From positions 19,486,974 through 19,550,973 of the forward strand of contig NC_089724.1 in assembly GCF_035083965.1 (NCBI RefSeq): a stretch of 64,000 nt of DNA, in the 5' to 3' direction. The DNA is from Branchiostoma lanceolatum. Its lineage: Eukaryota > Chordata > Leptocardii > Amphioxiformes > Branchiostomatidae. The translations under genes and the position numbers were made by a program. A model generated the notes under the pieces. That model was not told the origin of the DNA, searched no databases, and saw only the letters and a list, made by a program, of their open reading frames with translations. Below are positions 5,506-61,500 of the stretch, one piece after another (positions within the stretch are counted from its first letter, which is position 1; every line of letters begins with the position of its first letter).

Positions 5506-7017
5506 TTATTGAGGGAAAAGCATATTCCTAACCCTCTTGTACTCCCCCAATAATACCTTGGCACTTGGCCTTTGCTTGGGGTCCATGTTTTGGCACTGTT
5601 GATGCACTTTGAACAAGTGTAATCTGACAACATCACTTCCATCAACATTTCCCAGTAAGTAGTCAACAACAGTTGGTATTTTCCAAATGTCAGTTTTTTC
5701 ATCATATGAAGGCATCCTCGAATCCTCAAATGGCTCATTTTCAAAAGGCCAAAGCTGTTCAGGTGCAACAAAATCTGACACAATTTCTCTTGTTCCACAC
5801 TTAACAAAAAGCTGTGCTTCTGGATTTACTTCTGGTAAGGCATCCAAATCATTTAAGACAAGTTTAATGTCCTCCGTAATGAGAAACTGGGATAGGGTCT
5901 TAAAGAGGTCGTTTGAGTCGCACATTACTCGTGTGCCAACTGGACTGTTGTGTAGAAAATTTATTGCTTCAAGGTAACTCAGAGCAATGTTTAATCTTAT
6001 CCGGATATTGTTAAACTTGCTGAACTCCTCACTCTCTAAAATGGTCTCAATGTTTTCTGCAGATCCAAGTCTGTAATACTCTGTAAGGAGGGTTGTGTGG
6101 CACGATCCAACCAGCTGCACGGCGTGAGAAGTCTGTTGCATGTTCCTCAGCATCTCTACACCATGTAGGAAGTCCTGGAGGAAAGTCTGCTGAGTCAGGT
6201 TACTGTAAGCCACTGTGTGGCCTCTCCAGGTAGCTTTGTAAACCTACAAAATGCAGAAGGCAAAATATGTTATTGAAAGCATGTAACTTGCCCGCTGTTT
6301 CATCAAATTCATGTCATTGTATGTTGACCTGCAGTGATCTTTGAAAAAATACTTTTCCTCAAGGACATTATATAATTGCGATACTGTATTTCTGGTTAAA
6401 TAAATAAACAAACAATAAACAATAATGTCCTTCTTTTCATCAACTAATGAGGTAGTTTCCACAGTCAACAACCCCTTACAGTAAATCTATCAAAACAGGT
6501 TAAAATAAGGGGAAAGTTGTGATTGAATTAACGTTATGCCCTGGGGATTGAAATGTATTCGTTAATTCATCCTAGCCAATCTTGACGGTTTTACATCTAG
6601 TCACATGTACACCCACACCTCGCCTGGGTTTTACATCGATACGTGCAGAAAAAGTAAGGGTACCGTTACCTGCTTCACGGCGCCCTGCCCGAGCATGTGC
6701 TGAACGGTGACCTCGTTAGATATGTCTTTGCACCCAAGCCATGGCATACAAGTTTCCATCGTGTCAAGTCTAAAACTTTCCGGCGGGCACAACCCCCTCT
6801 CTCCGAGCAAGTCCAACTGCCCCTCGAGCTCCTCAACATCCGGGTTGGAGTCTTTGGCTTTCCCCTGGCTTTCCCGTCCCAACGTATCATCCCCTTCAAA
6901 GTCGAATAGCCCAGGTTGCAGGTCCGGGTCAGAATTCAACCATAACCACAGAAATAAGTAGAAAAGCACCGGAATCATCAGAAGACTGGCCACATCTCGA
7001 ACACTTAGAGGATGCAT
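5506..7017 (-). CDS. POMK: Protein O-mannose kinase (SGK196)
   Basis: There are two coding exons: 7017 down to 6670, then 6243 down to 5506, joined in phase 0 (donor CAG/GTAACG, acceptor TTTTGTAG/GTTTAC). POMK phosphorylates mannose in the core M3 O-glycan of alpha-dystroglycan, working in the ER/Golgi lumen. The start at 7017 is followed by a hydrophobic segment at about residues 9-28, matching the type II membrane topology of the family. Family hallmarks are GQGAVKQVYKATW (glycine-rich loop region), SPVGTRVMCDSNDL with the catalytic-loop aspartate, the DFG-replacing NDLDALP, DFVAPEQLWP, and SYDEKTDIWKIP. As in vertebrate POMK, the canonical HRD and DFG motifs are absent, which is why it was once called a pseudokinase. 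Just 5' of the ATG a TTTTTCAG/GT acceptor-like site suggests an upstream non-coding exon. The downstream neighbour is convergent ELMOD3. Confidence 0.95.
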
Positions 7018-11995: not shown

Positions 11996-12003
11996 GGATC
12001 TGA
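11996..12003. repeat. Left target-site duplication of the foldback element
   Basis: GGATCTGA directly precedes the left arm and recurs in the same orientation at 20676-20683, just outside the right arm. Confidence 0.7.
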
Positions 12004-12732
12004 CGGTCCGTGTATTCACCGAAATACGGGAAATACGCGAAATACACGAAATACACGTCCGAAATACACGAAATACACATGAAGATGGCTGAAATCTACC
12101 GAAATACAGTATGATTTGATGTGTTAACATCACAGGTTGCTATATGCCGTCTTAAAATGATATATTTATAGCCCTGGCGACAAGAAAATGACAGAAAATA
12201 CTTCGCGATCCCGGCCACGTCCGGTCGCCGCCATCTTTCTTACCATACACCATGATGTTTGTTTTTCAGTGGTGTCTTCTTATGTGTCATTTACACAAAA
12301 AGGGTGGTGAAATGTACCGACATACAGTATGATTTGATGAGCAAACATCACAGGTTGCTTTATTTCGGCATAAAATAATATATTTATGGTCCTGGTGACA
12401 AGAAAAGGACAGAAAATACTTCGCGACCCCGGCCGGCCGCCGCGTCATCTTTCTTACCATACGCCATGATGTTTGTTGGGTATCAGGACAACTCGGCCCC
12501 TAGGCCGGGACAACTCGTCACCTTACTTACTGAGCACGTAATATGTGTATGTTTGGAGAAGATTGGTAATGATATCGATCTAGAAGCCTCACTACTATAA
12601 TTTTAACTTCTTTTTTTTTTTTGCTCGGCAGGAAATTCTATAGCGCCGGCGTACTTTGGGGTGCGCCAGCGGGGTCAATCGCCCGTGTCGCCCGCCGAGT
12701 CCGACCGAGTTGCCCCGCTAGTCTAAAGCGAT

Positions 12733-13646
12733 TTGATTTGATTTGATTTTATTTGACTGTAGGAAAGTACAGCCAGGACTACCCAACTAGCCGAAGGCTA
12801 TTACAAAGGGTTAGCCCTGGTAACAGTATATTCAAAGTTCAATACAAACTTTCACAAGGTGCGCATGCGTCAAACACACACATAGCGGCGGACACAGAAC
12901 ACAAAGTAAAATAACATCGAAGAAACAAAATTAGCAAAAACCATCACAGGACTGAAGCGCATATGGAAAAAAATTGCACAAGACTAAGCTATATATAAAT
13001 CGTTAACAATGTCAAGCCAAAACTTAGGTTTATATTACATACTAGTAGGTTAGCAGATTATACAACATGTCATCTAATACTTGTGGTAGGTCAGTCAATT
13101 ATTTACAGAGTATCTGTTGCCGAGTGACGTACAGAGTTTGTTTTTGAAGGAGCTGACAGTGAGGGATGTGCGGATATTACTGGGAAGAGAGTTCCAGAGT
13201 GAGATCGCTCGACTAATGAATGTTCTCTGAGATCTGGTAGTTTTGCACGTTGGAGTAGTCAGGTGTTCACTGTTCCTTAGGGGATAGCGGGAGTTGGTAT
13301 CAGGCGCACGTGTTTGGGGTAGTAAACTCTGGAGATGTGGAGGGCAGCGTCCATTCAAGAGTCTGTAGAGGGTCACAGTTGTGTGGAACTTGCGACGGTA
13401 CTGGAGTGATGGTAGTGATAGTTCGGTGTAGAGACTTTCGTAGGAAGGATACGGTAGCCCGAAGTGTCCACTGATGATTCTGGTAGTCTGGTATTGGACA
13501 GATTCCACAGTCCTTTGGTCGCGTTTGGTAAGACCAGACCAGACAATGTCTGCATACTCGAGGTTTGGCCTTACGTCATGTATAGTCTAAGGAGTAGGTC
13601 CTTTGGAATCTTCTTCCTCATTGCACATAGCAAACCAGAAGATCGT
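12733..13646 (-). mobile_element. 5'-truncated non-LTR retrotransposon (LINE) inserted in the left arm
   Basis: The right arm lacks this 914-bp segment: its sequence passes directly from the equivalent of GTCTAAAGCGAT to CTAAAGACTAC. On the minus strand the segment encodes the C-terminal tail of a LINE reverse-transcriptase ORF and ends at 12733 with a short TCAAA-type tandem tail. Such simple-repeat 3' ends are typical of CR1/L2-group elements. Truncation removed the catalytic part of the reverse transcriptase. Confidence 0.8.
13095..13508 (-). pseudogene. C-terminal remnant of a LINE reverse transcriptase ORF
   Basis: An open frame of 137 codons (open a little farther upstream on the minus strand) contains ISLWNSLPSNIRTS and SSFKNKL. 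This is the conserved LWNSLP...S...FK.. tail that follows the reverse-transcriptase domain in many LINE families. No YADD catalytic motif is present, so it is a non-functional fragment. An upstream in-frame stop lies near the truncation point. Confidence 0.75.
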
Positions 13647-14089
13647 CTAAAGACTACTGGCTTACATTACAATATGAAACTACACGACATTAAACTACAA
13701 GCATATAATAAACTACTTGGTCTTTGTGAACATGATTTGTCTCTAAATAAAGGTCGGTCACAAATCTCATGTTTGCCGACAAACAGTCGTGAACCAACAA
13801 CACAACCGACACTCGCGGTCCGATTCGTAGGCAAACAAAAAATCCAATACAGCGGTGTCCAACGTTCGTTCATGACTAAACAATCGTCAGAAACTTTCCC
13901 TGTATGTGATTTCCTGCTAACTACTGCCCATATGCCATTGTAGAAGCGATAATGTGCAACGGATTGCGCTAACTTTCTCTTCGGGTAGCGTACATTTAGG
14001 AACAAATATGGCGGATCAAGCTATACCATCATCCTTTGCGCGGCAGGAAATACTGTAACCAGTTATGCCAAGGAGGTTATATCAATACC

Positions 14090-14640
14090 AGTGATCTCCA
14101 GCTATATGGTTGACAGCGAATTACACTTTTGTCATACTATTTGAATGAGAAACGTATGAAATTTAGCCCTGCAAATTTGGTACATCTCCAGCGATACTAG
14201 TACAGTAGTTGACAGCGAACTACACTTTTGTCATTCTATTTGAATGCCAAACGTATGAAAATTGGTGACGTCGCATATTAAACCAGTGATCTCCAGCTAT
14301 ATGGTTGACAGCGAACTAACACTTTTTATCATACTATTCGAATGCCAAATGTATGAAATTTGGCCCGACGCATGGAATTTGGTACGTCGCATCTCTTAAC
14401 CAGTGATCTCCAGCTATATACTAGTTGACAGCGAACTACACTTATATCATACTATTCGAATGCCAAACGTATGAAATTTGGCCCCACGTACGAAATTCGG
14501 TTCGTCGCATCTCTTATTAAACCAGTGATCCCCAGCTATATGGTTGACAGCGAACTACACTTCTGTCATACTATTTGAATGCCTAACGTATGAAATTTGG
14601 CCCGACGTATGTTGGTACGTCGCATCTCTTAACGTATGAA
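14090..14640. repeat. Tandem array of units of about 95-120 bp inside the foldback element
   Basis: Five imperfect units contain CCAGCTATATGGTTGACAGC, GAACTACAC, TCATACTATT and CGTATGAAATTTGGC. The first one and a half units belong to the inverted arm and recur inverted at 19334-19490. The later units are unique to the left side, so the array grew or was lost on one side only. Confidence 0.85.
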
Positions 14641-14811
14641 AGTGTGCAAGCCATACAAATGCAACGTGATTTTCAAGCCGATTAACACCTTGACACCTTT
14701 TCATAGCGCGTCAGCAATCAAGGTGATTTTCTGTACTTTAGCAGGAAATCAATTTATCACTTTGCCTTTTATTGCATGGTGTCACCTTTTTTGCCATGTA
14801 AAGACCGATTT

Positions 14812-15155
14812 GTTGCCATTTTTCGTGATATACGTTTTTAATGGATTGTGCCATTTCTGATATAACTTTGTGACTAGGTTTCTTTACCTTCAACAAGAAA
14901 TGTTAAGACCCGATTTGTAAATAGTTGTTGCCATTTTTCGTAATATAATTTTTTCATGGATTGTGCCATTTCTGAAATAACTTTGTGACTAGGTTTCTTT
15001 ACCTTCAACAAGAAATGTTAAGACCCGATTTGTAAATAGTTGTTGCCATTTTTCGTAATATAATTATTTTAATGGATTGTGCCATTTCTGAAATAACTTT
15101 GACTAGGTTTCTTTACCTTCAACAAGAAATGTAAATACCCGATTTGTAAGTAACT
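14812..15155. repeat. Tandem array with 115-bp period, three copies
   Basis: Units begin at 14812, 14927 and 15042 with GTTGCCATTTTTCGT. Each contains GGATTGTGCCATTTCTG, CTAGGTTTCTTTACC and CAACAAGAAATG. A partial fourth start occurs near 15190. The array sits in the centre of the foldback element. Confidence 0.9.
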
Positions 15156-15582
15156 TGCGTACTTTCCATGAATGCTGTTGTAGAACATGCTGTTGCCATT
15201 TTACGTAATACATGTGTATAGATTTGTGACTTATTTTGCTTTTGCTCTTGGTCTAAATGTCTTTCTTAACATTTTGCATTGTAAATACATTTGTTGATGT
15301 TTGCTAATGTACGTTTGCTGTGACTGGACTTCTGTTAGTAACGGTTAGTACGGTATTAACTTAAGTAGGCGAAACAAATGTCTTCGTTCAAAACTTCAAA
15401 CAAAACAAAACGCGTCAGAACCTGAGGTGTTAGAAAAGAACGAAAGTTGACAACAAGTTAAATATCGAATATATAAAGTTGACAATAAGTTTAATAACAA
15501 AAAAAAACAGAAACGCTTGATAACCCAACAACGCATATTTCAACGTGAACGCATTTGGAACAAAGATTATATTAAGTAGGCC

Positions 15583-15799
15583 TGTTGAGTAGGTAAAGGC
15601 ACTAGCTAGGAGAGCAAGGAATGACGTCTTCACTCAGTGCTTGCCTGGTGAGAACTGCTATAGATGGACAGATGTCCATCCCCTTTATTACCAAGTAATC
15701 AGTAACAGATGTCTGGTGTCTCTTGACCACCAGGGATAGACTGCTCGTCTTCCTGTTGTAATTACAGTAACATCTTGCACAGTAAATGTCTCTACTACA
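15583..15799 (-). repeat. LTR (downstream LTR in element orientation)
   Basis: 217 bp, matching 17044-17260 with no difference found by eye. Bounded by the GGCC duplication on its outer side. Confidence 0.9.
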
Positions 15800-15811
15800 A
15801 TACTCCCCCGT
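15800..15811 (-). other. Putative polypurine tract
   Basis: The minus strand reads CGGGGGAGTAT directly before the downstream LTR. This is the expected position for plus-strand priming and supports the minus orientation. Confidence 0.55.
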
Positions 15812-17028
15812 ACACTTAGAAGTGGTCCCCACTTCTTTAAAATTACTCGTAATCAGCAGAAGGCACGATCTAAGTATGACAGTTTAAAACGGAGAGGTCA
15901 GATACAATAATATAAACAGAGATGGTAAGGTAAACATTGCAATGCCATAAACGGGCAGGGGTGTGACAAGTAATTGACTTCTTCCGGATGATGACAAAGC
16001 CTCACAGACGGGCTGCTGCTGTGATGATAGAGACAGAGGCGTCTGGGTACTTCAAAGCACGAACATAAAACAACAAACATAAACAAGCAAAAACAGGCTT
16101 CGCTACTGACATAGCAGTCAAGTACGAGCAAGTTCTACGTTAACGCAGCATGGTCAACGCAGTATCCGACATTACCCAGCTTCAGGGTGGTCGGCAAATA
16201 TCAACTCACAATCATGTCACATCTAGCATAGACCGTCCCGTAGGCAAATCAGTTCTATCTAGGGAAGGCATCATGCAGTCTCAATACAAAACAATACAAT
16301 ATAGCGTCCACCAGGTGGATCCGTTTCCCGTAGGCTTACGAATAGTCCACCTGGCGGGTCCGTCACCCGTAGGCTCACGAACATACAAGAATACAAGACA
16401 TCGTGCAATAATGGTACCTAGCTACAATTAAACCACAAAAGTTCGAGATGTTGCACAAAGTTCAGTGGTCCGGCAGGATACGCGGAGAAGTACTTTTTCA
16501 CAGTTCGGCTAGTTTTCACGGTAGAAGGTCACGTGCACGCTGGTTATCACGGATGGGCAGCGACGGGTTCCGTCGTAGGGGTAGTCGGGCTGGGTCGCGA
16601 TCAAGTCGGCATGGTGGGTCAGGAAGACGGCAGCGTGGTCGGCAGGACAGCGCTGTCTTGCGCACGTGGTCGGCGGCGGGTGGCATCAGGACATCGGCGG
16701 CGTGCTCTGGCCTCAGCGACGGCGAGCAGGGAGTCAGGACGCCTGGGCACATGGCAGACGTGGTCGGCTGGCAGGCTGGCTTGGTTAGAGGGCGGCATGG
16801 AGACACGTCGGGCGAGCTGGGTCTGTGTCGTACGGCAGCAGGCTGGCTAAACGGACGGCGTGGTAGCGTGGCGAGTCGGGGCTGCTGGCACGATGGCAGG
16901 CAGAGCATCGCAGCGCGGGCGGAGCTTGCTTGGGTAGCCGCTGGTCTCGCTGCCGGGCGACTCGGGCGGCATGGTAGCTGGCCAAGGCTTGCGTCGAGGC
17001 GGGTTCGGCCGTTCGAAAACGGCAACCA

Positions 17029-17042
17029 CCGCTATGCCACCA
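17029..17042 (-). other. Putative tRNA primer-binding site
   Basis: The minus strand reads TGGTGGCATAGCGG, one base after the LTR. TGG pairs with the universal CCA end of tRNAs. The implied tRNA 3' end is CCGCTATGCCACCA; I did not identify the tRNA. Confidence 0.65.
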
Positions 17043-17043
17043 G

Positions 17044-17260
17044 TGTTGAGTAGGTAAAGGCACTAGCTAGGAGAGCAAGGAATGACGTCTTCACTCAGTG
17101 CTTGCCTGGTGAGAACTGCTATAGATGGACAGATGTCCATCCCCTTTATTACCAAGTAATCAGTAACAGATGTCTGGTGTCTCTTGACCACCAGGGATAG
17201 ACTGCTCGTCTTCCTGTTGTAATTACAGTAACATCTTGCACAGTAAATGTCTCTACTACA
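17044..17260 (-). repeat. LTR (upstream LTR in element orientation)
   Basis: 217 bp, identical to 15583-15799. Adjacent to the primer-binding site on its inner side. Confidence 0.9.
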
Positions 17261-17683
17261 GGCCTAATGGTCCTTTCTTCCAGTCTCACGGTAAATTTAC
17301 CTGAAAAAAAAAACGTGTAGAAATGTAAGAAAGTGGCAAAGCTAGGAAGTGGCGAAATTGATGATAACAAGGGAGATTATAGGGAGATAACAGCCTATGA
17401 CTTATTCAGACGAAAGGAAAACATAACAAGCCCCACACATTACGGAACAAGTGGGCAGGAACTTCTCAAACCTTTACCAGCCCTTCCTACGAGCGTATGG
17501 GTCGTAGAATTCGGCAAAAAAAGTAATAATTGGCCACGGTAAAGTTGATAATTTGCCCGCAAATGAAACCCCCTCGCGACCAAACTTCCTTGGCAAATAT
17601 CATCCCTTTGACAATATCATCCCTTATAATATCTATTTTGCCGCCGTGCCCGTGTGATCTGCTTGGAGATTAGCTTTAGGTAT

Positions 17684-17713
17684 TACCAAGGAGGTTATAT
17701 AACCTCCTTGGTA
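17684..17713. repeat. Perfect 30-bp palindrome
   Basis: The sequence TACCAAGGAGGTTATATAAC continues as its own complement to 17713 with no spacer or mismatch. The half-site CCAAGGAGGTTATA also occurs singly at about 14069, inverted at about 19496 and near 37131. It looks like two element termini joined head to head. Confidence 0.9.
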
Positions 17714-17775
17714 TTACGTATTTCCTAACTTGTGGTGCATTATGGTATGTTTGTTGTTAATGGTATCCAAACATG

Positions 17776-18039
17776 GTTGTAAAATGTACCGACATACAGT
17801 ACGATTTGATGAGCAAACATCACAGGCTGCTGTATTTAGGCATCGAATAATTAAAGGCAACCTAAGCAATATTAGGGCGCTGAAAGTCATATATTCAAAA
17901 TCAATTTTTTTTCTGATTTCTATCCTTAGTAAGTTTAGATAACACTATCCCATCGCATATCGACCATCATGAAGCAAAAATACTTTGCGCAGAAAATGCT
18001 TTGCGATCCCGGCCGGCCGCCGCGTCCTCTTTCTTACCA
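17776..18039. repeat. Fifth, interrupted copy of the arm module
   Basis: TGTACCGACATACAGT, GATGAGCAAACATCACAGG and later GCGATCCCGGCCGGCCGCCG with TTTCTTACCA match the left-arm module at 12301-12478 in the same orientation. About 130 unrelated bases (about 17860-17990) split it. It lies outside both paired arms. Confidence 0.75.
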
Positions 18040-18099
18040 ATTGACGTGTTGGGACGTTATAGCCTCCTTGGAATGACCGAGCCGAGCGAGTTAATCATG

Positions 18100-18155
18100 T
18101 TGGCTCAACTGATAGGCCGACAGATCGCGAGTTTATAGATCGTGAGTTCAAATCC
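18100..18155 (+). other. tRNA-like segment with A-box and B-box resemblance (possible SINE head)
   Basis: TTGGCTCAACTGATAGG resembles a pol III A box and GAGTTCAAATCC resembles a B box, about 40 nt apart as in tRNAs. I could not fold a convincing acceptor stem. It may be a tRNA-derived SINE head or a decayed tRNA copy. Confidence 0.35.
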
Positions 18156-18397
18156 ATCAATATCCAATTTCTTTTGGCTACCTTTTTGACATCCGTTTTT
18201 CTGAATGAATCATTTATTTAAAGGAATGTCTCCATTTTACAGGATCATCTTCAGGGTTTGGAAGGGATGCGGGTTTTGTGTGATTCACAGGAACATCCCG
18301 TGTGAACACAGGGGAAATGTTATCGTTATCTTGTATATTTAACCTCCTAGGTTATTTATGAACCATGTTTATGGTTATATAAGGGCAAGGGTTAAGG

Positions 18398-18487
18398 TTC
18401 TTATTGACAGGCTTTAACTAGTATATGTCAAGAGCGGGGAAAATCTTACTGACACTGTGACAAGTTAGCTTAGCCTGTCAATAAGAA
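18398..18487. repeat. 16-bp inverted repeat with 58-nt loop
   Basis: TTCTTATTGACAGGCT at 18398-18413 is matched by its exact complement at 18472-18487. No open frame lies in the loop. Confidence 0.7.
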
Positions 18488-19333
18488 CTTGCGGGGGAAA
18501 TCTTATTCACTGGCCTCTGTCTTGTCGCAACGTTAACGTTATATAAAGTGCAAAGTTTGAGTTTGATTGTCTATGCCTTGTGTTCTAATTCTGTGGATCA
18601 GTCGTTGGAAGAACGTTCATTGTGAACGCAAACACAGATGGAACTTCGACGGTCGGACGCCGTTGTAGACGGATTCTTACTTTAATCTTGATTAGTTATA
18701 GTTATATATTACCTTATTGACAAAACGCAAACATAGGATTTTTCCAAGGTATTATATAACTATAAACATATACATAATGGTGATTACAATTAAAAAGTAC
18801 ACTTTGTTGATATCAACATTCGGGTTTAAACTACCGTGGAAAATATAAATAATTTGAAACGTTTATCGCTATATTTTTTCAATATATGATGAAATGACGA
18901 TTTTATTTGAAATTATGATATCAGCGATCTGATTGTTGAATGGACAGAATAAGTGGCCATGAAAAAAAACCGTAATGCTACGTGCCAGTGTTTTCTCATA
19001 ACTTGTATCCCTTCTTCAATCCTACACCGCAACGGTCTCTTCCTCACATAGCTACAGCAACATTTCCAACACATTGTTTATTACGTGTGACAAGTCTTTC
19101 AGTGAAACCTGGCGCATTCCTCCGCGAAGCGTGCTGTTAATTAACCACGCCTCCCATCCTCACAACAGAGCTAACCTGTCGTTACTACAAGTCTTACAAG
19201 ACACGAAGTCGCTTTGATTGAGCCCCTGGCCTTATTGAATTTGGCAGTGCGATCTTGACTGTGAATAACTTTGTTCTATTGTTTTATTCTATCCAATAAA
19301 AATATTCATATTCCATACACCGACATGAGAAGG

Positions 19334-20675
19334 TTCAAATAGAATGACAAAAGTGTAGTTCGCTGTCAACTACTGTACTAGTATCGCTGGAGATGTACCA
19401 AATTTGCAGGGCTAAATTTCATACGTTTCTCATTCAAATAGTATGACAAAAGTGTAATTCGCTGTCAACCATATAGCTGGAGATCACTGGTATTGATATA
19501 ACCTCCTTGGCATAACTGGTTACAGTATTTCCTGCCGCGCAAAGGATGATGGTATAGCTTGATCCGCCATATTTGTTCCTACATGTACGCTACCCGATGG
19601 CCCGAAGAGAAAGTTAGCGCAATCCGTTGCACATTATCGCTTCTACAATGGCATATGGGCAGTAGTTAGCAGGAAATCACATACAGGGAAAGTTTCTGAC
19701 GATTGTTTAGTCATGAACGAACGTTGGACACCGCTGTATTGGATTTTTTGTTTGCCTACGAATCGGACCGCGAGTGTCGGTTGTGTTGTTGGTTCAATCA
19801 CGACTGTTTGTCGGCAAACATGAGATTTGTGACCGACCTTTATTTAGAGACAAATCATGTTCACAAAGACCAAGTAGTCTATTATATGCTTGTAGTTTAA
19901 TGTCGTGTAGTTTCATATTGTAATGTAAGCCAGTAGTCTTTAGTATCGCTTTAGACTAGCGGGGCAACTCGGTCGGACTCGGCGGGCGACACGGGCGATT
20001 GACCCCGCTGGCGCACCCCAAAGTACGCCGGCGCTATAGAATTCCTGCCGAGCAAAAAAAAAAAAAGAAGTTAAAATTATAGTAGTGAGGCTTCTAGATC
20101 GATATCATTACCAATCTTCTCCAAACATACACATATTACGTGCTCAGTAAGTAAGGTGACGAGTTGTCCCGGCCTAGGGGCCGAGTTGTCCTGATACCCA
20201 ACAAACATCATGGCGTAATTGGTAAGAAAGATGACGCGGCGGCCGGCCGGGGTCGCGAAGTATTTTCTGTCCTTTTCTTGTCACCAGGACCATAAAATAT
20301 TATTTTATGCCGAAATAAAGCAACCTGTGATGTTTGCTCATCAAATCATACTGTATGTCGGTACATTTCACCACCCCTTTTGTGTAAATGACACATAAGA
20401 AGACACCACTGAAAAACAAACATCATGGTGTATGGTAAGAAAGATGGCGGCGACCGGACGTGGCCGGGATCGCGAAGTATTTTCTGTCATTTTCTTGTCG
20501 CCAGGGCTATAAGTATATCATCTTGAAGACGGCATATAGCAACCTGTGATGTTAACACATCAAATCATACTGTATTTCGGTAGATTTCAGCCATCTTCAT
20601 GTGTATTTCGTGTATTTCGGACGTGTATTTCGTGTATTTCGCGTATTTCCCGAATTTCGGTGAATACACGGACCC
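19334..20675. repeat. Right inverted arm of foldback element
   Basis: Reverse complement of 12004-14244 without the LINE. It includes both module copies, the long A-run (T-run in the left arm) at about 20054, and the terminal CGAAATAC-type repeats. Scattered single-base differences from the left arm are visible. Confidence 0.85.
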
Positions 20676-20683
20676 GGATCTGA

Positions 20684-28781: not shown

Positions 28782-28861
28782 ACGTCAAATGACGGTTACT
28801 CAAGCAACTGGATAAAATTTTGTAATTCTATCCAGTTGCTTGAGTAACTGTTATTTGGCGT
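28782..28861. repeat. Hairpin repeat, two 38-nt arms
   Basis: The left arm contains GTTACTCAAGCAACTGGATA and the right arm its near-complement, with a 4-nt loop. Half copies occur at 42196-42231 and 46967-47007, so this is a dispersed family. Confidence 0.85.
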
Positions 28862-30096: not shown

Positions 30097-30765
30097 TTTG
30101 ACTTGGACTTGTCAATCGTCAGTTCACACTACAGGTGAACAGATAAACAGACATATATGTTTGTCTGGGAGTAAACCAGTAACGCGTGGGGAAAATACTG
30201 GAGTAAAATGAGTGATGGTTGGCACAGTGCCTGAAAATGAAATTTTGTTCTCGTGTTGTTGATTCGTGTGACCTTTACCAAACAACTCCATGTCCTTGTT
30301 CTGTTTTCAGACTGGCAACTGTGAGAGGGGAATGTCCTCATAAATCATAACTCGGTCATGACGGATGACCTGAGGAACAGAGTTGCCTGCACTGCCCGTC
30401 ACATTTGACTTGGACTTTTCAATCGTGTATCCATGTAATGCTTTTACGGGTGACCAAAGACACTTATCTGGGAGTAACGCGGAAGTCAAACAACAGAGTG
30501 AAATAAGAGGGTGGGTGATGAAGGGACTGATTGTCGGTCTCGCTCATTAACAAAGAATGTTAAGCAATGGATGATTGGCCGTATGGCTATAGCCTTTTAA
30601 GTTTCGTTGTTGATTATGTTGCATTTGCCAAACGACTCCATGTCCTTGTCCTGTTTTCAGACTGACAACTGGGAGAGGGGAATGTTCTCGTCAATCATAA
30701 TTCGGCCATGAAAAATGACCTGATGCACAGGGACATAAACCTGCCTGTCCTGCCCTTCACACAGC
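30097..30765. repeat. Tandem duplication of about 305-360 bp
   Basis: 30097-30401 and 30403-30765 share TTTGACTTGGACTT, TCTGGGAGTAA, ACTCCATGTCCTTGT, CTGTTTTCAGACTG and GAGAGGGGAATGT in the same order. The second copy has gained bases in its middle. No open frame is conserved between copies. Confidence 0.8.
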
Positions 30766-40886: not shown

Positions 40887-48367
<7,481 letters not shown>

Positions 48368-51300
48368 TGTCCTACATCCATTGATCTTTGTCAACAAGAT
48401 ACAAGAATATGTCCAAGAAAAACAGACCAGAAAGATACCCTCCCCCTTTTCACTGTTGGCGGGGGCCTCGATTAACCCAAATTCAATGGGACTGCCCTAA
48501 AATCTTGTGCCTAATAGATTCAATATTTCCTACAATCTTATGCAGCTGAAACACAAATACAAAAAGATCAATAATAAAACTTCGTTTTAAAGAATGAAAA
48601 ATTATATTCTAGTCCGTTTGATTAGTATTTGATAATAATTTTTGGATTTGTATATGAGTATTGATAGGCACGTAAGAAAGAAAATGTTGAACAGGGTGGG
48701 ATCTAATTGAGGTCAATAGAGGTCAGTAAGATGGCTGTCAGTGGTTTGTAGGTGTTTCGCGTTTGTCTCCACCCTTTCTAAAGCATTTCACGGAGAATTC
48801 GGCCACTCTGAGGTAAGATTTCCCCCTGAAGCATATCTGATATGTAGTTGTCCCTGTAGATTTTGTGTTTAGCGAGAAATTCGACGAAATGCGTCCAAGT
48901 CTGGTGAAGGATTGTGATCCAGGTGTCCAAAATAATTTTTTATCAGGTTGAACGGAAGTGCACAGGTAGGGAGGACGTGAAACCAGGTGTGGTATGACTG
49001 TTAACGACGGGAGGAATTTATTCATATCGATCTGCAGGTACAACTGTCACGTTCACTTTCCTGCCTTGATCCCTACGCAGTGGCACGACACTCACATCGC
49101 CTGCAAACTTTGATCCATGTTTAACGATCTACCAACACGTTGCACTGGCTTTTATTCACAGATTATTCTTCTTCCCCAATTTCGGTTCTTTAGAGTAACT
49201 ACATCTAACGTTATATAAGTAGAATATAATGCTACAACACGACCCTAAGAAGTTAACATATATAACAAATGGTTCTGTGACTAAGAATCTTTCCTAATAA
49301 GGGAATCCTATGGTACATGGTCGTGTGAGTTTGCAAAATTATCCAATTCCTCATTATAGTGTCCATCACTAGCACTGTGTGCATGGCAGACTCCATCCAG
49401 GCACCCCAGGCCATGATAAAAAGATGCCCATTAAGAAGAAAAATTGTCCCAAAATACCCAAATGCTAAATGATGACAACTCACACGGCCATGTACTATAG
49501 GACTCCCTTATTAGGAAAGATTCTTAGTCACAGAACCATTTGTTTGGAGTCCCCAAAGCTCTTCAATAGAGTTGATCTAAATAAGGAAGGGTCAACGAAG
49601 AGGGATCTAGCATGTGTACTGTTGTTAACATGATAATAGCCTTGTAAACATGGCCAATACAGTACAGTACATTGTGAACTGTCAAGTAGTCAGTATGCAG
49701 GATCCCTGCCAACTTGTGCCAACAACAAGTCACATGAAAGACATCATGTAACCAAAATGCTAAAGCTCTATGAAAGACTAGCATAACGCTGCAATTTTTC
49801 ACTTGTTTGAGTGAATTTTAGGGATCTTTATGGGTGATAAACCAGTTACCTCTGACATGCATTTGAAAATATGGCTGATGTCTTTTGGTTAGCATTCATT
49901 TGCTGGCACATACTGCTTGTCAAATACACCAAACACATTTGAATTTTATTCTTGTTCTTGAATGAACCATTCACACTTAAATACATATACTGTACAGGTA
50001 AATAGAACCTGGTACATAGTTGTTATGATATGTCTTATAGATTACAGAATCTCTTGGAATAAGGGTCTCCCAAGATTTTACCTTTAAGTTTGACACATCC
50101 ATGTTTTTCATGGCCATACTTATCAATTAGAGTCAGTGTTTGCCAGAATTTAAGAAGTGTATAGTCAACATCGTCTCTCAAGATAATAGGCGACAAAGCA
50201 GGGGTTCCAGCCAAGGACATGTATACTGCTATCATGTATTCTACATATGGAAGATGTAGTTCAGTTAAGCAGGTATGCGTAGTGATTTCTGTACAAAAGT
50301 TGGTAAGTCTGAAGTACAGACCATGGGTCTTGAATTGATGATCACATGTTGTTTGGTATGTGCCTATCTTATCAAGTGTTGTTTGTCACACAGCTGTCTA
50401 TCAGTAGAGCAAACAGTGATAGCTGCTTTGGGTTGTCATGTGCCTGATTATGATACTTGCAATCCTGTCCAATTTTGAGAATTTCCCTCAAAACATTTTG
50501 GACTACACAATAAAGGACCATTTGTATGAAGCAGAATGCAGTTGATAAAAGTCAAATTTGGAAAATTCTGTAGAACCAAAGAAGAACAAGATACAATAAA
50601 AGTCATTTCAATAATTGATTGGAACAATAGGTCAAAGTTCACAGTTGTTTGCTGTGCTGAAGTAAAGGTGACAATAATATTGATTATATGGGGGCATTGT
50701 CAGGTGAATGTTTCAGGTTCTATTGTCATTCACTTCCAATCAAAAGATGACTATTGTATATGTGTATGATTTGAACTGTTGGAACCATTTGTGCTACACA
50801 AAAGCATCCAGCCGCATGATTTGGTAATGTTTGTGTCAGACGACCCTTTTAAAACAATTTAATAGAACAAGTCAGTTTTACTGAACATATGTTGCTAGGG
50901 TACCATTGACCATGTTTGAAGTATAAAGACATGGATTCCAGATGTACTGTTTGTGAAGTCAATCCAGTCAAATGGTCCCAGCCCCACTGCTTATTGCTTG
51001 AACATTCCAGAAAGAGCAAGCAGATTAGACACGTATGTATATGTGGCATGGCTTAACCCCTGACAATGTGTTTTCTTGTTCTATTTATTCTGACTCTCTT
51101 ACTGGAATGTAACAAACTTGGGACATAAATTTACTGCTAGTATTAATAGTGCTCCAAGTGAAAGTCCACAACCCATATACATCATGTACATACTCTTGTT
51201 ATCCAATGCTTGAAGTCTGTCTGAAGTCCATGGTCAAAGCCACATATGGATTCAATGGGTTACATTTTACTTTTACATGCCCTAGACAAAGCAAGCCATA

Positions 51301-52594: not shown

Positions 52595-55500
52595 ATGGAG
52601 CCAGGCAGCTATGTCCGTGTTCTGTTTGATTTTGAGACCTACGAGCCAGGAGAACTGTCCCTCCGGACGGGCGATGTGGTCCGAGTGGTGCGACAGGTCA
52701 ACCAGGACTGGCTGAAAGGGGAACTGGACAACATGTCAGGTAGGAAGACATGTCACATTAGCAGTGTATAAATCATTATCTCCATCCGTTTGCAACTTGT
52801 GTAGTGACCCTCCAAGGATTCTGCACGTCCTCTCTTCTGCAAGAATGGGCCATTGCATTTGTGGTTTAGCCCATCCATATTCAGATGTATGTGCACTTCC
52901 ATCGGAGAGAAATTTGAACTTTAAGGATAGTTTGAGCCTACTGGACACAAGTTGGTTTAACCTTTTAAGCAACATTATTGATTCTGGCCTCAAGCCCAAA
53001 CCTTTCATATTTCTTTTAAAGCCTTGAAGCCATGATTTACAAGTTCTTTCTTGCAGGTAACTTCCCAAGTAACTTTGTGGAACAAGTCCCTGTGCCTGCT
53101 GTCAGACCTGGGCAGAGACTGGCAGTTGGAGTAGAAGACTTCCCTGCTCAACAAGATGGAGACTTAGACATTAGAAAAGGTACATGATAGGTATTTCTGC
53201 CATCTCAGTAAGCATTTTCAGTATGATGATACTGGCTTGTGAGAATTTTCTTCATGCAATTCTACTTTTTGTTCTGTCCAATGTAAAAGCTGATGTGATC
53301 ATAATGATATGACATTCCTGCAAGGCCAAAACATATGGAAATTGCAAATATGTCAAGTTGATCTTTACAGTTTGTTTACATCTGTCCTAAATGGTCCTAG
53401 CATCTTTGTGTACTACATATATGATCCTTTTTACTAAATAGAACCAAGGCATTAATCCACTGATCACTCAAACCTGTGCATAAAACATGTTTCTGTTTTT
53501 TTTTGCAGGGGAAATAATTCTGATAACAGAAGATATAGATGGGAACTGGTATCGAGGGGAGTCTGGAAACAAAACAGGCATCTTTCCTTCTCTCTTCTGC
53601 AAGGACCTCCCTGCCCCCAGATCTCAGGATAGTGCCATCCCTGCAGAAAAGGCAGAAGGCGTCCTTGGTCAGGCAGAGGTTTTACAGGACCTGCAAGCCC
53701 AGTTGGATGAGGAGTTAACACTGTACCAGGGAGACATTGTCAACATCACTAGAGTAGTGGACCAGGACTGGTATGAAGGGGAATTAGCCGGCAGGTCTGG
53801 AATTTTCCCTTCAGCTTTTGTGAAACTTTTAGCACAACTGAAGGGACAGACACAGAGTATAGTAGACAATTTGCCCTCAGATGATTCAGATTCAGAATCT
53901 GAGGATGAGGATGAGATGCCGTGTGCCAGGGCAATCTTCCCATTCCAGGGTAAAGACAGCACAGAACTGACATTCAAGGAGGGTGACAAGATCACATTGT
54001 TGAACAGATATGACGAGGATTGGATAGAGGGGGAGCTTGATGGAGATATAGGAATTTTCCCAGCAACCTTTGTGGAGATAATCATTGATCTGCCTCGATT
54101 TGATGACGATGGGAACGAGATTACCCAGGATGCTCTGCAGGCAGGGCACGCTGGGACATCCCACGGTACATTGCAAACTGGTGATATGAAGAGCCAAAAG
54201 GAAACTGTTAGAATGTCAGAAGGTGGGCAGCCTTCAGTTCATGACCCCTATGCAGGGCAGACAGCACGTGCCTTGTTCAGATTCGATGCTGCAGAAAGGA
54301 CAGACCTCCCTCTGGAGGAGGGAGAAACTGTCACAATCATCAGCAAGGTAGATGCAGACTGGTTTGAAGCCAAGAAGCCAACAGGTGAGAGTGGGCTTGT
54401 GCCTGTTGGCTATCTGGAAGTAGTAAAACCAGCCAGGGAAACAGGAGGGAAAGACGTCAACGACATCTCACAGCAAGACACAAATTCAGGGAAATATGCC
54501 AGGGCTTTGTTTGAGTTTGAAACCAGTGTAGAGGCAGATATCAGACTTGTCCCAGACAAATTGTATAGGATCATACGTGTGGTAGACAAGGATTGGATGG
54601 AGGTCCAAGATGAGGCTGGCCAGGTCGGTGTTTGCCCTGCATCCTACTTACAAATCATGGATGGCAGTGATCAGCAGGATCCTCGTCTGTCAGCCACTGT
54701 GGAAACACAACCAGAAATGGCAAGAACTGTGGAACAATCAAAGCCTGCAATAGAAGAGAGTAGGTCTCAGCTGGACAAGCCTAACAAGCCTGGGGTTAAA
54801 CCTAAACCTGAGGTGAAACCTAAACCCCCTGTAGCATCAGGGAAGCCCACAGTTACGGCTGAAAAACCCTCAGGTAAGGTACTACATTGTAGACCCCCTG
54901 GTGGCAGGACAGGATGCCTGCAAATTGACTTTTCTGCCCTGTTTTTTTAAAATATATGTCTGTCCAGTTGTCTTACCATTCATATTTCTAAGACTTCATC
55001 TAAAACATATTACCACAGGATGCTTCAAATTGCAGATCATACTCATAGATACTGTGAAAAGTTTGTGTCCTTTGGAGTTTCCTTGTGTTACATTTTGAGC
55101 TACACATATGATGGGTTTCAGCATCTATATGAAAAAAAATCATACTCATGCTCACTACTTACGTGATAATGTATATACTGCCTCAGTAGGCATGAATTAA
55201 GTAAGACATTACAATAACATTACTTAAGTAATGGTGTGCTGCTTGGCTCACATCTTCAGGCAGTTGCCAGAGTCTTAGCTTGACAAGGTACTGTTCCGCA
55301 GGGGTGAAGGTGTTGGACCAAAAGCCTATGCGAGCCACCGCTGCTGCTAGTCACGGCCCTTTTGCTGCTGTTCAGGCCAGCCTGGGGCCTTCCCGCATGA
55401 GCCTGGACTCTGACACATCAGGCTACAGCTCAGGGTACAGTCAGGAAGACCTGACAGGGCAGAGGCAGTCTGCCACGCTGCCTGGTACGTCTCGCTGATT

Positions 55501-58500: not shown

Positions 58501-61500
58501 AGCTGAGTTGAATGAGTTGAGAGACAACCTGAGGTTCATCGCCCCGCCTCCCAGGGAACAGACGGAGGCTGGGGTTTCACTGGAGGAGATCAGGAGGAAG
58601 AAAGCAGAGAAGAGGGACAGGGTAAATTCCATAGGATGTAGAATGTCACAAGTTACTGTCCAAAATAGATGAGTGGTCTTCCTGTTGTTGCATTGTTTTA
58701 GATGTAAAATGGAGAATGCACTATAAGATCTGAAGTTTTAAACAAAAGTCTTACCAGTAATATTTGTTGTAATCTTGAACCTTGTTGAAGAAGATAAGAG
58801 GCTAATCCTTTGTTCTCTCTCTCAAGAAAACAAGGTGATTCATCTCAAAATGTAGACATGTAGATTCAGTCAACACTAAAGAACGCTTTTTCACTCATCC
58901 TTTTGTTCCAGGTTGTCCAGGAGATCATCCAGACCGAGCGGGACTATGTGAGAGACCTGCACGTTATCACCCAGGGCATGCTGGTCCCCCTGCGCGAGGA
59001 GAAATTCCAGTCGGCAGAACTGAACGTCCTGTTTGGTAACATCGAGGGTGTCCAACAGCTGGCCCAGCAGTTTCTCCCCGCCCTGGAGCAGAGCGTGGAG
59101 GGGGTCGATCCCGAGGAGCAGACACTCGGCGAGACCTTCCTCGGGTTCTCCCAGGACCTGGAGGAGACGTACAAGCTGTACTGTCGTAACCATGACGATG
59201 CCCTCGCTCTCTTGGAGAAGTACGAGGAGATCGAGGAAATCCAGGAGTCTATCACCAGGTGCCTTGGTGAGTCTGGACTGGGTCTTGTTGATTTTGGACA
59301 GGCCGTTTTTACATTGTAAGACTGAAAAAAATGTTGTCTTTTTGATGAAGTCACTGATTTCACTAAATATGAAATGTACATCAGCTTTCTAATTCAGTTT
59401 GACACATTGCATAAACATAATTGTACTTTATAACAATATTATTGATGATACAATATCTTAATGTGTTGTGTGTTTTTTGTGAAAACTAACTAATCTGACG
59501 CCGTCTTTTCTTGCTTGTTGTGAAATTTTGTACTTTGTGGAGCCAAAGCAAGAACTTGGGGTTATTTTTCTCAGAAAGCAGCCACAACTGCTTGTACTTT
59601 TGTAGCCCAGAGACCCAAGTTCAGCTATTGATTCCGTACTTCCTTGTTTGGTCTATCAAAATGCTCTCCTAGCCTAACCAAGTGTCCACTTTTGTGTATC
59701 TTTCTGCCACTTCCTTTAGAAAACTGCCATATGTATTGAATACTTGTAGTCCATGACTGTGTTTCAAATTATCTCAACTTTCTTCAATTTCTTAAACTTA
59801 AAGCAATACTTAAAATGCTATTTGAAAAAGAAACAAGAAAAAAATGAAACGCTGATCGTGCTTGCTGTGGAATTACAAAAAAAGACTGATAACCCGGTGT
59901 GATCTGCAGTGTCCTAGTGTGAAACTCACCTGTAATGTCAAGGGTAAAAGTTTATTAAAATATTGCGTACAGACAAATGGTTTCACAAGTGTTAGGATGC
60001 AGTCAAACTATCCAATTATAGTTTGTTCAAAGTAGCTACTTTAAAGTAAATAGATTTGATTTGCTGTTTGAAAATCTGATCTAACTTTGCTTGATAGTCG
60101 TCGGCTATTTCGATACCAAAACTATGTTTTTTGCACAGCCTTTAGCTTCTTATAGCTGTTCATGAAAAGTGTTATCTAGACTTTACTCTTCGTCCTACCT
60201 TCCTTTGTGTGTGGCAAGCTAACCAGTCTTGCAAGCGTTGGCTAAATGTGCTAAACGTCTAAAAGTTGTCAAAAGCTTAAAAAGACTGCTGACTCTACAC
60301 ACGTAGGGGCGATGCCTGGAACTGCAGTCAGCATGAGGAATAATAATGCAACATCAGAAGGTCAGGCACTGGACTCTGCCACTCTGGATAAAGGTATCAG
60401 TTTAGCCAACAGGCTGAAACGGTAGTCAAATCTTTTAATCTGTTGAAATCACTATTATAACAAATCCCATGAAATGAGATGTGCTGACTTTGATTATCGG
60501 ATCCTGTGAGAATTGACAAGACAAAATAATTTGATTGCTGAATGGGATGATTGCTGCTGTAGAATCTGATGTAGTTTTTACTCATCTGTTCTGAACACTT
60601 CCACACCACTTTTACATTAGAAGCATTCTAGTTACATTCTACTATTCTAGTTACTGCAGATGCCTTTTTCATGCAACAGCTGAGTCTATGTCTGAGAAGC
60701 AAAGTCCTATCATTTAGCCATACCTGTCAAGCCCAAACCATCACAGGCATATAACTACCCAAGGGACAAGTAAAAGAGATAAGAGCTTTTGTTCAGTATC
60801 AGAACTAATCAATCTTAATGGAATGAATAATGTCATCTGAGCTATCATCAACAATACCTACATTTCCCTCTAATTATGTTACTGAGATCAAAGCATCTAG
60901 TCCCTGAAGGTGACCCTGACAGAAGATACACACCTATGACATCTGTATTTAGCAGGTGTTTTAAAGGATGTGATGTTGTAAAGAAAGAGTTGTGTAGAAT
61001 TAACGGATGGAAACCTTCTGTTTGTAGTCACGCTGAAGGAGAAGTGGAGGATGGCTGTGATTGACCTGAGCTCCCTGCTCATCAAACCTGTGCAGAGAGT
61101 GCTGAAGTATCCACTGCTGCTGAACGAGCTGCTGAGTGTGAGTGCTTTTAGGATTTCTGAATCTGCCATTGTTCAAATCAAATGCTCCTGGTAGTGGTTA
61201 TACCTGATATTTCTTATTAAGATGTTCTGTCAGATGCAAGTACATGTAAGTATCTAAAGTAAGAATGATAAGTACCTTAAGTATCATAGTTAATCTTTTG
61301 CATCATTTACCATAGCGCTAAACTCATTCGATCTCCAAACTACTGCAGCTAACTTGTGCTCCCACAAAATCACACAGTATTTCATTAGTCAAGAGATACA
61401 TGTAGGAAAGATGTCAGGCTTGATAAGCTCTTCCTCCACAGACAACAGAAGACGACCACCAGGACAAAGCCAACATCCTGGCAGCTGTCAACAGGATGAC

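Follow-up and report, generated by a model that had tools for sequence, protein, structure and literature searches.

An 8.7-kb feature at positions 11996 to 20683 of a 64,000-nucleotide stretch of the lancelet Branchiostoma lanceolatum (contig NC_089724.1; the whole stretch is called the window, and positions are counted from its first base) is best explained as a single transposon insertion. That it is a foldback DNA transposon we hold with very little doubt. The fuller description, a non-autonomous foldback element most likely of the Mutator type (Mutator-like element, MULE; Phantom/Muta-like), is probable, and a Mutator-type mobiliser is favoured somewhat less firmly.

The evidence for a single insertion lies in the arms and their flanks. 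Two long inverted arms, the left at 12005-14244 (split by a 914-bp insert) and the right at 19334-20674, carry internal tandem repeats, as expected of foldback elements, and exact 8-bp copies of GGATCTGA flank both of them just outside, one unmatched C away on each side. When random pairs of positions were drawn from the same window, an exact 8-mer within 3 bp (0-3) of both points was found for 64 of 200,000 pairs, pairs less than 1 kb apart being skipped and scored as misses. The first-pass annotation of this DNA, made from the letters of the sequence, had placed the element at 11996-20683 with an 8-bp target-site duplication (TSD), and these coordinates are right to the base. The features are as follows, with tandem repeats called by Tandem Repeats Finder (TRF) where indicated.

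11996-12003, plus strand: left TSD, GGATCTGA, read in the sequence.
12004, plus strand: unmatched C in the sequence at the junction of TSD and left arm, an element base if the TSD is 8 bp.
12005-12732, plus strand: left arm, outer part; 98.6% inverted BLAST match to 19945-20674.
12020-12078, plus strand: subterminal array of 7.1 units of CGAAATACA (TRF), with a mirror array at 20601-20649.
12074-12477, plus strand: direct repeat pair at a spacing of 218 bp, units 12074-12291 and 12292-12477.
12733-13646, minus strand: probable 5'-truncated non-LTR (long terminal repeat) retrotransposon in the left arm, 914 bp without counterpart in the right arm, with a (GATTT)n tail by TRF.
13647-14244, plus strand: left arm, inner part; 97.7% inverted BLAST match to 19334-19943.
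14087-14633, plus strand: tandem array of five copies at 96-120 bp spacing (repeat search and TRF).
14810-15149, plus strand: tandem array of the centre, three units of 115 bp (TRF and repeat search).
15583-17260, minus strand by inferred orientation: nested non-autonomous LTR retrotransposon in the centre.
17677-17720, no strand: 44-bp palindrome in the centre, found as a self-match; DNA fold of 17670-17730, z-score -6.25.
17768-18042, plus strand: degenerate fifth 218-bp unit in the centre, in two pieces (BLAST).
19334-20674, minus strand: right arm, unbroken (BLAST and joint alignment).
20675, plus strand: unmatched C in the sequence at the junction of right arm and TSD.
20676-20683, plus strand: right TSD, GGATCTGA, read in the sequence.

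With its insert excluded, the left arm is 1,326 bp long, and the right arm measures 1,341 bp, in agreement with the 1.33 kb first given for them. A local alignment with the left-arm insert omitted spans 1,343 columns, of which 1,318 (98.1%) are identical, 6 are substitutions and 19 are gap columns; the latter form 8 gaps, including one where the insert had been cut out. The left arm, initially said to be traceable base by base like the right, is broken by the insert at 12733-13646. The inverted match starts at 12005 and 20674 with GGTCCGTGTATTCACC, which occurs with at most 3 mismatches only at these two sites in the window. Given an 8-bp TSD, the outermost element bases, C at the left end and G (read inward) at the right end, are not inverted, and the ends read CGGTCC (left) and GGGTCC (right, read inward). 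The “exact outer ends” of the first-pass annotation must be corrected accordingly, as the ends are imperfectly inverted with an unmatched C at 12004 and at 20675. BLAST of the element against the 64-kb window found no further copy, and exact end or arm patterns had no match in viral or prokaryote contigs, where an animal element would not be expected to occur. Searched for as plain text in published papers, the end sequences gave one unrelated 13-letter match, in a Bacillus paper.

From the end inward, each arm consists of the 16-base GGTCCGTGTATTCACC, the CGAAATACA array (which shares one base with this terminal stretch), the 218-bp repeat pair, a unique stretch and the first part of an array of repeats of about 100 bp. 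Both arms stop inside this last tandem array, whose copies are spaced 96-120 bp apart; the left one has five copies, the right one two. The window has 13 exact copies of CGAAATAC, six in the left arm, five in the right arm and two elsewhere, a count that is descriptive and carries no test, since the motif was picked after the arms had been read. The 218-bp units are closer across arms (215/218 and 184/188 identical columns) than to their same-arm neighbours (160/192 within the left arm and 156/195 within the right), and the arms therefore appear to have been duplicated or converted as wholes. So the arm would have been inverted-duplicated, or homogenised by gene conversion, later than the tandem duplication of the 218-bp unit. 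The degenerate copy of this unit at 17768-18042 matches the left arm at 88% over 84 bp and 92% over 50 bp, and the right arm at 92% over 53 bp.

The centre, initially described as 5 kb long, does measure 5,089 bp, but 1,682 bp of it are the nested LTR element and one copy of its 4-bp duplication. With both insertions removed, the element is about 6,076 bp long with a centre of 3,407 bp. We scanned all 58 open reading frames (ORFs) of at least 50 amino acids (stop to stop) overlapping 11996-20683 against Pfam. None of the 58 reached a curated cut-off, and transposase or reverse transcriptase models were absent even below threshold. The best sub-threshold scores, DUF2633 (E 0.0066, 16.7 bits vs a cut-off of 25) and HVO_2928_N in an LTR-element ORF (E 0.0081, 16.1 vs 27), were taken as chance. 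Outside the LTR element, the two pieces of the centre hold stop-free runs of at most 79 codons. A transposase encoded in the element is therefore rejected on the 0/58 result, with the limit that a badly decayed one could be present since only ORFs of at least 50 amino acids were taken. A MULE DDE transposase was found neither in these 58 ORFs nor in the 16 scanned of the 23 ORFs of at least 110 amino acids elsewhere in the window, which gave kinase, SH3 and RhoGEF domains above cut-off and no transposase of any kind. The initial description of a foldback transposon with an 8-bp duplication and no recognisable transposase is thus upheld by the arms, the TSD and the Pfam scan. An RNA family hit at 15986-16047 was rejected as chance (22.2 bits vs a gathering threshold of 38, E 0.35), and no transfer RNA was found in the window.

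The left-arm insert at 12733-13646 is probably the 3' end of a long interspersed nuclear element (LINE). It contains a 163-amino-acid ORF (13095-13586, minus strand), which may resemble the terminal part of a reverse transcriptase of CR1/L2 type, a likeness that no library bears out. This ORF had no Pfam match and no matching PDB chain, and among viral contigs four pattern-matching stretches all failed tblastn, leaving no confirmed relative. No clear target duplication flanks the insert. The LTR element in the centre is bounded by 217-bp TG...CA direct repeats (15583-15799 and 17044-17260) that are 100% identical by BLAST, and GGCC stands on both sides of it (15579-15582 and 17261-17264), which at only 4 bp is weak evidence by itself. 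Read on the minus strand, a purine-rich tract precedes the downstream LTR and a TGG-type primer site follows the upstream LTR. No gag, pol or retroviral-type Pfam match was found at any reported score in the LTR-element ORFs listed, which gave chance-level unrelated matches only, including a viral envelope model at E 0.06, far below cut-off. The element at 15583-17260 is young-looking and has a GC-rich interior.

The probable LINE and the LTR insertion, which only one arm or the centre carries, are read as later arrivals. The few arm substitutions (6 per 1,324 aligned arm bases) and the identical LTRs suggest that the locus is young, provided that the likeness of the copies is not maintained by gene conversion.

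The superfamily is approached through form. The duplication of 8 bp falls within the 8-11 bp of MULE TSDs (PMC6446971), and the long terminal inverted repeat (TIR) carries short subterminal tandem repeats, here the 9-bp array, as those of the Phantom/Muta group of MULEs often do. TSD length, G/C ends and subterminal repeats would suit Mutator-like foldbacks, with Merlin also possible, so the statement of the first-pass annotation that the ends fit no superfamily that can be named was too strong. Its view that the build is unusual does not stand either, since foldbacks such as Tetris are described with arms longer than 1 kb, tandem repeats inside them and a centre that does not code (PMC4079207).

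The animal foldbacks of Mutator type (Muta1, Tm1 and Tetris) are the best match in form, although form alone is no proof. Tetris of Drosophila virilis is described as having TIRs of up to 1,735 bp, tandem repeats of about 220 bp, TSDs of 8-10 bp, a variable middle and no apparent coding capacity, and its authors suggest Mutator (PMC4079207). The lancelet element shares the long TIRs built of domains, the repeats of about 220 bp within the TIR, the apparently non-coding middle and the TSD length; unlike Tetris as described there, its outermost domain is a 9-bp array, and arrays of about 100 and 115 bp lie further inward. Muta families of Aedes aegypti are reported with 8-9 bp TSDs, heterogeneous middles in non-autonomous copies, and subterminal repeats of 9-15 bp in 10 of 12 long-TIR families (PMC5225508), which resembles what is seen here, an 8-bp TSD and a terminal motif with short tandem repeats next to it. 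Muta1 and Muta5 differ in having TIRs of 145 and 151 bp and in encoding transposase (PMC5225508). The Tm1 Mutator/Foldback family of Meloidogyne likewise has a composite TIR with short repeat units and unequal outermost motifs, but differs in its 9-bp TSDs, in repeats most often of 14 bp and in the putative transposase of some copies (PMC3169594). Among arthropod MULEs, TIRs are reported to reach 1,193 bp, with mostly G/C in the first three bases (PMC13359780).

Sea urchin TU elements have long inverted arms, an outer domain of short tandem repeats of 15 bp and 8-bp TSDs; they differ from the lancelet element in this 15-bp rather than 9-bp outer repeat. Literature searches on sea urchin TU foldbacks found nothing beyond the Tetris paper, in which a sea urchin foldback is merely cited (PMC4079207). 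Searches for amphioxus foldback transposable elements and for LanceleTn found no literature, and the words MuDR, Mutator and MULE are absent from the main text of a paper on amphioxus transposable elements (PMC5802833). PMC6446971 notes that confirmation is lacking for the MULE transposases reported from the Florida lancelet.

For a Mutator-type foldback, passive mobilisation may be proposed. A transposase made elsewhere in the genome and supplied in trans would bind the motif at the ends and the CGAAATAC repeats, which from their place in the arms are putative transposase-binding sites. It would pair the ends and excise the element, and insertion with an 8-bp stagger in the target would, upon repair, yield the two GGATCTGA copies. 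One arm would have become two by inverted duplication or by conversion, and the probable LINE tail and the small LTR element would have inserted afterwards.

Several points weigh against the Mutator assignment. It is form that speaks for this superfamily, since there is no transposase and no second copy in the window, and the outermost base differs between the element ends. Merlin likewise combines 8-9 bp TSDs with GG termini (PMC8101967), and Galileo of the P superfamily has long foldback arms outside Mutator (PMC3688188). Published MULE TIRs are mostly far shorter, given as 14-500 bp in the text and at most 640 bp in a table of PMC6446971, and arthropod MULE TIRs are typically 20-95 bp (PMC13359780).

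The strongest alternative is a foldback of another superfamily with 8-bp TSDs (Merlin, P, hAT or Zisupton) whose arms evolved independently, as in Galileo; we regard it as possible, at clearly less than even chances. Merlin combines its TSD length with 5'-GG ends, and the right end of the element reads GGGTCC inward, but given an 8-bp TSD the left end begins CGG and not GG, and the Merlin TIR range of 24-462 bp tops out well short of the arms (PMC8101967). TSDs of 8 bp are also made by P (PMC7776569), by Zisupton (PMC12730594), for which TSD length is the sole feature compared, and usually by hAT. Galileo shows that a P-type element can bear foldback-like TIRs of more than 1 kb with internal tandem repeats, and extra transposase-binding sites have been demonstrated in its long repetitive TIRs, but it differs in its P-superfamily transposase (PMC3688188). 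For hAT and P, the TSD length agrees with that seen here and the termini do not. Their ends usually begin CA, and they fit less well because CA-type ends are not seen in CGGTCC and GGGTCC.

A further reading supposes that an ordinary short-TIR transposon made the TSD and that the long arms were built later at the site, through template switching or gene conversion, which implies that the long-armed form itself never jumped. Conversion would also yield the low number of arm substitutions (6) and 218-bp units that match better across arms than within them, and the ragged inner ends of the arms favour this reading too. Each arm, on the other side, comprises a full terminal array and internal repeats, as in foldbacks reported to be mobile as such, and no short-TIR relative occurs in the window; neither point is decisive, and we judge this course of events improbable. 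An inverted segmental duplication, or else an error of assembly, could account for arms 98.1% identical over 1,343 columns, but is very unlikely, as an exact 8-bp duplication lies one base from both arm ends (64/200,000 by chance) and the arms differ by substitutions, gaps and the 914-bp insert, unexpected of a chimeric read. As far as one sequence permits, this explanation, named at the outset as one that would overturn the finding, is rejected on the TSD, the arm differences and the nested insert. Two elements inserted side by side are rejected because a single TSD pair encloses everything.

The nearest recognised gene, about 5.8 kb from the element, is a relative of protein O-mannose kinase (5509-6243, minus strand; 5gz8_A, E 3.8e-81). 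Between 53 and 60 kb, at 53484-54947 and 58864-59316 (plus strand), Pfam identified SH3 domains in five stretches and one RhoGEF domain, a combination as found in dynamin-binding protein. These genes fit an animal source. Other repeats in the window are a minisatellite at 2004-2508 (43-bp unit, 11.5 copies, TRF), an 80-bp palindrome at 28782-28861 with partial copies at 42190-42230 and 46966-46998, and a direct repeat of about 126 bp (84%) at 30255-30380 and 30606-30730. A 68-bp inverted repeat pair (95.6%) at 49264-49544 is possibly a miniature inverted-repeat transposable element of about 280 bp, its duplication not being clear.

In kind the lancelet element is ordinary. PMC4079207 connects long-armed and related elements with chromosome inversions, and Tetris with the origin of satellite arrays. 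This copy is cleanly bounded and little diverged; it provides exact ends for finding related copies, an autonomous partner and alleles that lack the element, and the nested insertions permit relative dating of the element. That it founds an undescribed foldback lineage and represents, in the lancelet, a recently mobile MULE-type element is an improbable reading. If it is true, the value of finding the transposase partner of the element would rise, given the unconfirmed MULEs of the Florida lancelet.

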